Shown in pieces: positions 1-769 of a stretch of DNA of 63,245 nucleotides; the stretch's first letter is position 1; every line of letters begins with the position of its first letter. A program made the position numbers and the translations under genes. Location of the stretch: the NCBI GenBank assembly GCA_036376135.1, contig DASVAW010000107.1:1-63245 (forward strand), in the 5' to 3' direction. The notes below the pieces were generated by a model, which was not told where the DNA came from, did no database searches, and saw only the letters and a program-made list of their open reading frames with translations. Source of the DNA: Candidatus Polarisedimenticolaceae bacterium (GTDB taxonomy: Bacteria > Acidobacteriota > Polarisedimenticolia > Polarisedimenticolales > DASRJG01).

Positions 1-573
1 GGCGTTGGCATAGAGGCGGGTCGAGCTGCGCATCACCTCGTCGACGATGACGAGGCCGTTCGCCCTGAGCGTGGCGCCGGTCGCCGTGTTGTCGACGATG
101 ACGTCGGCGTCCTCGGGGGGGAAGACCTCCGTGGCGCCGAACGAGAGGACGAAGGTGGCGTCGAGGGCGCGCCGCTGCATCCACGCACGCGTCAGCCTCT
201 CGTATTCCGAGGCGACGACGAGCGGGCGCGACGGCAGCGCGCCCTCCACGAGCAGCGAGGCCGGAGCGGCGGCGACGAGGCGGACCGGATCGAGGCCGGT
301 GTCCAGGAGCTCGACGAGGTTCCCGCCGAGCTCCGCGACCCAGTCCGCGCCGGCGAAGCCGACGTCGCGCGTCCCAAGGTGGAGCATCTCGACGATCGTC
401 TGCGGCTTGAGGATCTTCGCCTCGACCCCCTCGAACGCCACCGAGGGGCGGTAGCCGCGGGCTCCCGTCTGGATGCGGATGCCGGCGTCGCCGAGGAGGC
501 GGAACACCCCCTCCTGCATGCGTCCCTTCGGGAGGGCCAGCTTCAGATTCGATCGATCCTGGAGGGGCGTCAT
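1..573 (-). CDS. hisG: ATP phosphoribosyltransferase HisG, 3' end outside window
   Basis: HisG condenses ATP with PRPP in the first committed step of histidine synthesis in the cytoplasm. The visible 191 codons begin with ATG and show the family's start (KLALPKGRMQEG near residue 10). They continue through the motifs VGFAGADW and VIVDNTATGATL, the latter being the PRPP-binding region. The gene runs off the left edge, so I cannot tell the short HisZ-dependent form from the long form with its own regulatory domain. A Shine-Dalgarno (AAGGAG on the minus strand, bases 580-585) lies 6 nt before the start. The upstream stretch 574-769 holds a histidine-rich leader peptide and alternative hairpins, so regulation by histidyl-tRNA supply is likely. 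Confidence 0.93.
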   Translation of the reverse strand, partial: MTPLQDRSNLKLALPKGRMQEGVFRLLGDAGIRIQTGARGYRPSVAFEGVEAKILKPQTIVEMLHLGTRDVGFAGADWVAELGGNLVELLDTGLDPVRLVAAAPASLLVEGALPSRPLVVASEYERLTRAWMQRRALDATFVLSFGATEVFPPEDADVIVDNTATGATLRANGLVIVDEVMRSSTRLYANA

Positions 574-643
574 TCGGGGCTCCTTCGACGCCGGCCCCGG
601 AGCCTGTCCCCTGAAACGGGAACGCCGGCCCCGGGGCCGGCGT
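571..643 (-). promoter_or_regulatory. Candidate histidine-responsive RNA switch before hisG
   Basis: On the hisG strand the leader transcript holds a perfect 22-bp palindrome (622-643, arms of 11). The 13-base element at 622-634 is repeated exactly at 588-600, next to the hisG Shine-Dalgarno. The 5' arm of the palindrome (bases 633-643) can therefore pair either with its own partner or with the distal copy. A third helix pairs 599-604 with 578-583 and would bury the Shine-Dalgarno. No U-run follows the palindrome, so control of translation is more likely than termination. The pairings are visible in the sequence; the switching is inferred. Confidence 0.6.
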
Positions 644-673
644 CCGTGGGTCAGACCAAGCTGTTCCGCACGA

Positions 674-733
674 TCACGCCGTCCCCTCGGGATGGGGGAG
701 GAGATGGGCGTGATGGTGCCGGAGCGAGTTCAC
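674..733 (-). CDS. Histidine-rich leader peptide of hisG (19 aa)
   Basis: A 20-codon frame on the hisG strand starts with GTG and encodes MNSLRHHHAHLLPHPEGTA. Five of nine consecutive residues (6-14) are histidine. It ends 100 nt before the hisG start and just upstream of the alternative hairpins. This is the arrangement of known his operon leader peptides, where ribosome stalling at His codons resets RNA folding. No Shine-Dalgarno precedes the GTG. A promoter -10 box ends 7 nt before it, so the peptide is probably read from a leaderless transcript. It does not need to be stable; translation itself would be the signal. Confidence 0.65.
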   Translation of the reverse strand: MNSLRHHHAHLLPHPEGTA

Positions 734-740
734 GTCGGAG

Positions 741-769
741 AGGGTACCGAGCGATCCGGGGCCCGGCAA
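741..769 (-). promoter_or_regulatory. Predicted sigma-70 promoter for the his leader and hisG
   Basis: The minus strand carries TTGCCG (769-764), a 17-nt spacer, and TACCCT (746-741). The expected start of transcription falls at about base 734, at the GTG of the leader peptide (733). The spacing is ideal and the -35 is a good match; the -10 is only fair. Confidence 0.5.

Follow-up and report, generated by a model that had tools for sequence, protein, structure and literature searches.

A conserved His-codon leader upstream of hisG in several bacterial phyla: a probable transcription attenuator with a predicted leaderless start

The hisG locus and its leader

The DNA analysed here (the window, 63,245 nucleotides) is the whole of one contig, C107, of an acidobacterial genome of 4.38 Mb that is 97.6% complete. 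At its left end hisG runs on the reverse strand from an ATG at position 573 to position 1, where it is interrupted by the contig end. On another contig, C170, hisD was identified through PF00815; upstream of hisD, the sequence can be read as further his genes. On the same strand as hisG, and separated from it by 100 nt, lies a short open reading frame of 19 codons (GTG AAC TCG CTC CGG CAC CAT CAC GCC CAT CTC CTC CCC CAT ... GCG TGA). Reading and translating the sequence bears out the preliminary description, which had reported a 19-residue frame with five His codons in nine upstream of hisG. The features of the locus are collected in Table 1.

Table 1. Features of the hisG upstream region in the window
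Feature	Position	Strand	Basis or remark
-35 box TTGCCG, predicted promoter	764..769	-	read directly; homologues mostly TTGAC(A/G), same spacing
-10 box TACCCT (TAnnnT)	741..746	-	17 nt from -35; ends 7 nt before GTG
His leader peptide ORF GTG...TGA, VNSLRHHHAHLLPHPEGTA	674..733	-	codons 6-14 with five His
Segment 2, GGCG-TGA-TCGTGCG around leader stop	667..680	-	folding with His-stalled ribosome; whole-leader fold
Segment 3, CCACGGACGCCGGCC, common to antiterminator (2:3) and terminator (3:4)	635..649	-	folding
Terminator hairpin GGACGCCGGCC-CCGG-GGCCGGCGTTC, 11 bp	620..645	-	core conserved in homologues
Weak U tract CCGTTTCAG, 3 T in 9, after terminator hairpin	611..619	-	read from sequence
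Second complement of terminator 5' arm, CCGGGGCCGGCGTC, 14 nt, perfect	587..600	-	just upstream of hisG Shine-Dalgarno
hisG Shine-Dalgarno AAGGAG	580..585	-	read directly
hisG (ATP phosphoribosyltransferase), partial	1..573	-	Pfam PF01634, 105 bits, over cut-off

Short open reading frames with at least five His in nine codons were counted on both strands in 353 kb of the 4.38 Mb. The hisG leader is the only one, and shuffling the 314-nt region upstream of hisG 5000 times produced such a run once. The frame itself remains open upstream as far as a GTG at position 799; the predicted promoter, however, places only the GTG at 733.

Conservation of the leader and the position of its promoter

The comparison of hisG upstream regions that the preliminary description had proposed was made on 97 distinct hisG loci, relatives of the window's HisG taken from whole genomes and a named genome collection. 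A leader was counted wherever a short open reading frame before hisG contained four or more His within ten codons. By this rule 65 of the 97 loci have a His-rich leader; locus L094, with a GTG start, is a 66th that the automatic rule missed, and about 30 loci lack a detectable one. According to their MAG labels the carriers belong to Acidobacteriota, Planctomycetota, Gemmatimonadota, Myxococcota, Spirochaetota, Pseudomonadota, Sumerlaeota and, in one case, Acidimicrobiia. The element before hisG is real and conserved. The residues flanking the His run differ greatly, as in MNFSCRQHHHHCHPFRGVR, MQSHRHHHHLWARRVRCMVGFMAD and MSNKRSIRINHLHHHGHAYAVTMIVIP, which implies that the His codons rather than the peptide are kept. 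The Spirochaetota leaders (L040, L043, L054, L066 and L084) have a long common tail, HLHHHGHAxAVxMIVIP, and its C-terminal codons may be fixed by RNA pairing, not by the peptide.

HisG itself is unevenly distributed in the window's class, with a match in only 9 of 41 genomes. As for the other 32, near-complete ones included, histidine synthesis may have been widely lost or be lacking, or the enzyme may be a very different one. Acidobacteria bacterium Mor1 is a member of the window's order, and its hisG locus matches CP011806; its HisG groups with Planctomycetota (96/87 support), apart from the HisG of the window, in a star-like tree whose bootstrap had not settled.

The promoter stands at a nearly fixed distance from the leader. 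Leader starts were taken as the ATG, GTG or TTG nearest to the His run and were picked blind to promoters. Nevertheless, the -10 box of the best promoter ends 6-10 nt short of the leader's start codon in 58 of 65 loci, and the -35 and -10 boxes of the best sigma-70-type pair are separated by 16-18 nt in 62 of 65. A -10 end 5-9 nt before the start was found for 80% of the leaders, as against 4.9% when the upstream bases were shuffled. Several of the exceptions to this spacing behave alike: at L010, L070 and L080, a second in-frame ATG restores the promoter distance.

Shine-Dalgarno sequences are absent from these starts. The base composition of the homologous leaders shows no purine-rich Shine-Dalgarno ahead of the start codon, and the mean anti-Shine-Dalgarno pairing is -2.1 kcal/mol for the leaders compared with -5.2 for the hisG starts of the same operons. 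In the window the values are -3.1 kcal/mol for the leader GTG and -8.0 for hisG. The E. coli hisL leader, treated by the same method as a control, is 38 nt away from its -10 box, as opposed to 7 nt in the window; its anti-Shine-Dalgarno energy is weak as well (-2.9 kcal/mol), so that spacing, and not the Shine-Dalgarno score, is the feature that discriminates. In 22 of the 58 leaders, the start codon itself supplies, with its first base, the first purine open to RNA polymerase; in the remainder this purine lies 1-4 nt ahead of the start codon. The term leaderless accordingly means here a 5' UTR of 0-4 nt.

These results agree with what had been proposed for the window: a promoter TTGCCG-17-TACCCT ending 7 nt before the GTG, with the Shine-Dalgarno lacking and the transcript starting at the GTG. 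The boxes, the spacer and the gap were all recovered, the -10 box falling within 5-9 nt of the start, and the conserved promoter-to-start spacing in homologous leaders favours the predicted start site. RNA polymerase would most likely start at the leader GTG or 1-2 nt upstream of it.

Leaderless starts may be common in this genome. Among 189 called genes (loci L111-L130 and the window), promoter-like pairs 5-9 nt before an in-frame start numbered 9, against 2.3 per bin, and this modest, roughly four-fold excess suggests that leaderless genes occur there generally. An average of 13.3% leaderless genes has been given for Acidobacteria (PMC3160421).

Other amino-acid leaders were also seen in the class. 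Short open reading frames with Trp codons (for example MTTSIRYAWWWYASLREVATD) precede trpE in four genomes, G031, G001, G005 (Mor1) and G018 (loci L131, L132, L133 and L134). Read by eye, their starts follow a TTGnnn...TAnnnn pair at a distance of about 6-10 nt, and they look like leaderless trp leaders. No convincing Leu leader was found before the leuA-like genes of the window's class.

Competing hairpins between the leader and hisG

Downstream of the leader stop, in the window and in its homologues, lie segments that can form mutually exclusive helices. The terminator hairpin of the window begins 28 nt past the leader stop and ends 46 nt ahead of hisG. In homologues a GC-rich hairpin mostly occurs 20-50 nt after the stop, and its core, CGCCGGCC/GGCCGGCG, hardly varies; a CGCCG core was found in 53 of 62 terminators and a T-rich tail in 52 of 62. 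Segment 2, which contains the leader stop codon, has two alternative partners, the His codon region (1:2) and segment 3 (2:3, the antiterminator). In consensus, the segment at the leader stop, GGCCGG-nTGATGGT, is complementary to ACCATC-GACGCCGGCC, which is the 5' arm of the terminator with its preceding bases, and TGATGGTG is also able to pair with CACCATCA of the His codons. The versions of the stop-codon segment and its complement in the window are GGCGTGATCGTG and CACGGACGCC.

Both helices show covariation. In an alignment of 36 sequences, 97.2% of terminator pairs are standard, with 14 double-change cells; none of 500 shuffles scored as high, and only 21-58% remained paired if the arms were slid by 1-3 columns. 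For the antiterminator, 70.6% of positions are paired, against at most 46% when slid, with 18 double-change cells and 0 of 500 shuffles as high, counts that rest on a MAFFT alignment in which segment 2 is misplaced in a few Gemmatimonadota rows. At column 91, where three sequences have A in place of G, the partners in the terminator (column 105) and in the antiterminator (column 28) change together, and pairing is kept in both. The hisG upstream region contains a His-run reading frame before a his gene, a terminator between the two, and an antiterminator that excludes it according to predicted folds and covariation.

RNA folding with a ribosome placed on the leader gave a graded picture. Upstream pairing took up 78% of the terminator 5' arm when the ribosome was stalled at the His codons and 39% when it stood at the stop; the shuffled control gave 60%. 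In these models the effect of the stalled ribosome on the terminator arm is real, yet GC-rich arms pair readily anyway. When the 3' arm is included, the terminator wins the equilibrium folds in most sequences despite a stalled ribosome (mean 82% of the arm), so that read-through would depend on kinetic trapping.

The window has one additional element, the second complement of the terminator 5' arm listed in Table 1. It pairs with positions 632-645, and the whole-leader fold prefers the resulting 18-bp helix over the terminator. It is largely particular to the genome of the window and may be an extra layer of control or a relic. As a conserved element, a further (fifth) pairing segment close to the start of hisG was rejected: an excess was present at only 8 of 55 loci and was strong only in the window.

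The covariance model of the element, R1, was run on 297 genomes sampled across the phylum. It matches the window at 611-700 on the reverse strand with 55.6 bits, the window being one of its training sequences. Matches above 50 bits occurred in only five of the 297 genomes, all within the window's class, and one of these five (G029), from outside the training set, has the same promoter, leader and terminator. Many further matches of 26-35 bits were rejected as His attenuators, since they resemble terminators of a generic CGCCGGCC kind and all six that were inspected lack a His leader. In two other families of Acidobacteriota (L012 and L013), where HisG is distant (about 34% identical), a His leader lies 8 nt after a -10 box and before an open reading frame that reads as HisI; hisG follows farther along, and the terminator has a different shape. 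Judged from these sequences, the distribution suggests that hisG and its leader have spread horizontally, with at least one separate association besides, though on a tree too poorly resolved for a count of such events.

The attenuation model, its alternatives and known leaders

The element probably controls the his operon by ribosome-mediated transcription attenuation, with a leader peptide made from a leaderless transcript (5' UTR of 0-4 nt); confidence in this reading as a whole is good though not complete. Taken separately, attenuation is very likely and the leaderless start likely. RNA polymerase would start at or beside the leader GTG or ATG, and a ribosome would initiate at the 5' end of the transcript without a Shine-Dalgarno. 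With His-tRNA plentiful, the ribosome would reach the stop codon inside segment 2 and mask this segment; segment 3 would then be available to segment 4, and the GC-rich terminator that they form would halt transcription before hisG. With His-tRNA scarce, the ribosome would stall at the His codons and leave segment 2 unmasked; segments 2 and 3 would pair with each other, so that the terminator could not form and hisG would be transcribed. The preliminary description had seen the signature of his attenuation in the His codons, and the His-rich leaders at 65 of 97 loci, with a conserved terminator and competing antiterminator downstream, agree with it. The -35 box and U tract of the window fit the model less well, being poorer than those of most homologues.

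Three other explanations deserve attention. The His run would be a functionless chance feature of a GC-rich intergenic region if a single genome with CAC/CAT-rich DNA were considered, and this is hardly credible: beyond its rarity in the 353 kb and in shuffles, its position and architecture are conserved while the residues around it differ, and conservation refutes it. Initiation independent of a Shine-Dalgarno exists on leadered mRNAs, and the frame is open to GTG 799. A His attenuator could therefore be carried by a leadered transcript, with a promoter farther upstream and initiation at an unrecognised site or in a longer frame from GTG 799 or TTG 769. This is improbable; in homologues across phyla the promoter and the leader start stay equally far apart, and peptide conservation sets in at the start placed by the promoter, the upstream frames not being conserved.

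Slightly less probable still is control of translation, in which an alternative helix hides the hisG Shine-Dalgarno and transcription is not terminated. The genome of the window gives it some substance, with GGCTCC...GGAGCC and the 14-nt second complement of the terminator arm at this Shine-Dalgarno, and with a weak U tract. Against it, the accessibility of the Shine-Dalgarno across 36 homologues equals that in shuffles (0.43 and 0.43), so that sequestering control of hisG found no support across the homologues; in the window's own genome the site is more accessible (0.59 vs 0.42), and in most homologues the hairpin is followed by T-rich sequence.

A leaderless attenuator has precedents for other amino acids. 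In Sinorhizobium meliloti the trpL (rnTrpL) RNA has the leader-peptide ATG at its very 5' end and acts through transcription attenuation (PMC7298713), and in Streptomyces lividans the leuL, trpL, ilvL, metL and thrL leader peptides are leaderless by RNA-seq start sites (PMC8079986). The former senses Trp before trpE(G) and is described in one lineage, whereas the leader found here encodes a His run before hisG; the S. lividans list contains no His leader. The preliminary description had regarded a leaderless attenuator peptide before hisG as an unusual design. Its leaderless part is supported, but the design is less unusual than was held, because leaderless trp, leu and ilv peptides are already published; what the sequences appear to add is a leaderless His attenuator across phyla.

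The enterobacterial his attenuator (hisL) likewise has a His-codon leader before hisG and an antiterminator and terminator that sense His-tRNA (PMC9413887). The present element differs in its hairpins, in the stop codon inside segment 2 and in its CGCCGGCC core. Rfam His_leader (RF00514) gave no match in the window or in eight homologous loci, the E. coli control scoring 131.6 bits; membership of this family was rejected with the gathering-score match absent at all of them, and the model misses the whole present group of His leaders. Outside Proteobacteria, His-codon leaders with terminator and antiterminator are described from the Bacillus cereus group, Erysipelotrichales and others (PMC9413887, PMC2965389); the portions of these papers that concern them place them in Firmicutes only and do not mention leaderless transcription, and it is by these descriptions that they are set apart here. 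A survey of Actinobacteria reported no conserved RNA elements before his operons, and found conserved GGCC-type triples in the terminators and antiterminators of trp attenuators (PMC1262725). The open-access papers searched were found to describe neither a leaderless His attenuator nor any His leader from the non-proteobacterial phyla of the present set.

A wider proposal, offered tentatively and with a little less than even confidence, is that leaderless initiation is the standard, selected design of a His attenuator found in several phyla, transferred together with this type of hisG. A start at the 5' terminus would let the ribosome load as the RNA emerges and would need no host-specific Shine-Dalgarno; trp leaders of the same class appear to be alike.

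Textbook attenuation is based on leadered transcripts, such as those of E. coli hisL and trpL. If the present reading is true, a conserved leaderless version before hisG would extend peptide attenuation to phyla in which almost none is annotated, namely Acidobacteriota, Planctomycetota, Gemmatimonadota, Myxococcota and Spirochaetota. For Acidobacteria, its near-absence from annotation was remarked on in 2010 (PMC2965389). Conserved short leaderless reading frames with termination as their readout would, moreover, provide a handle on how leaderless initiation manages to keep up with RNA polymerase.
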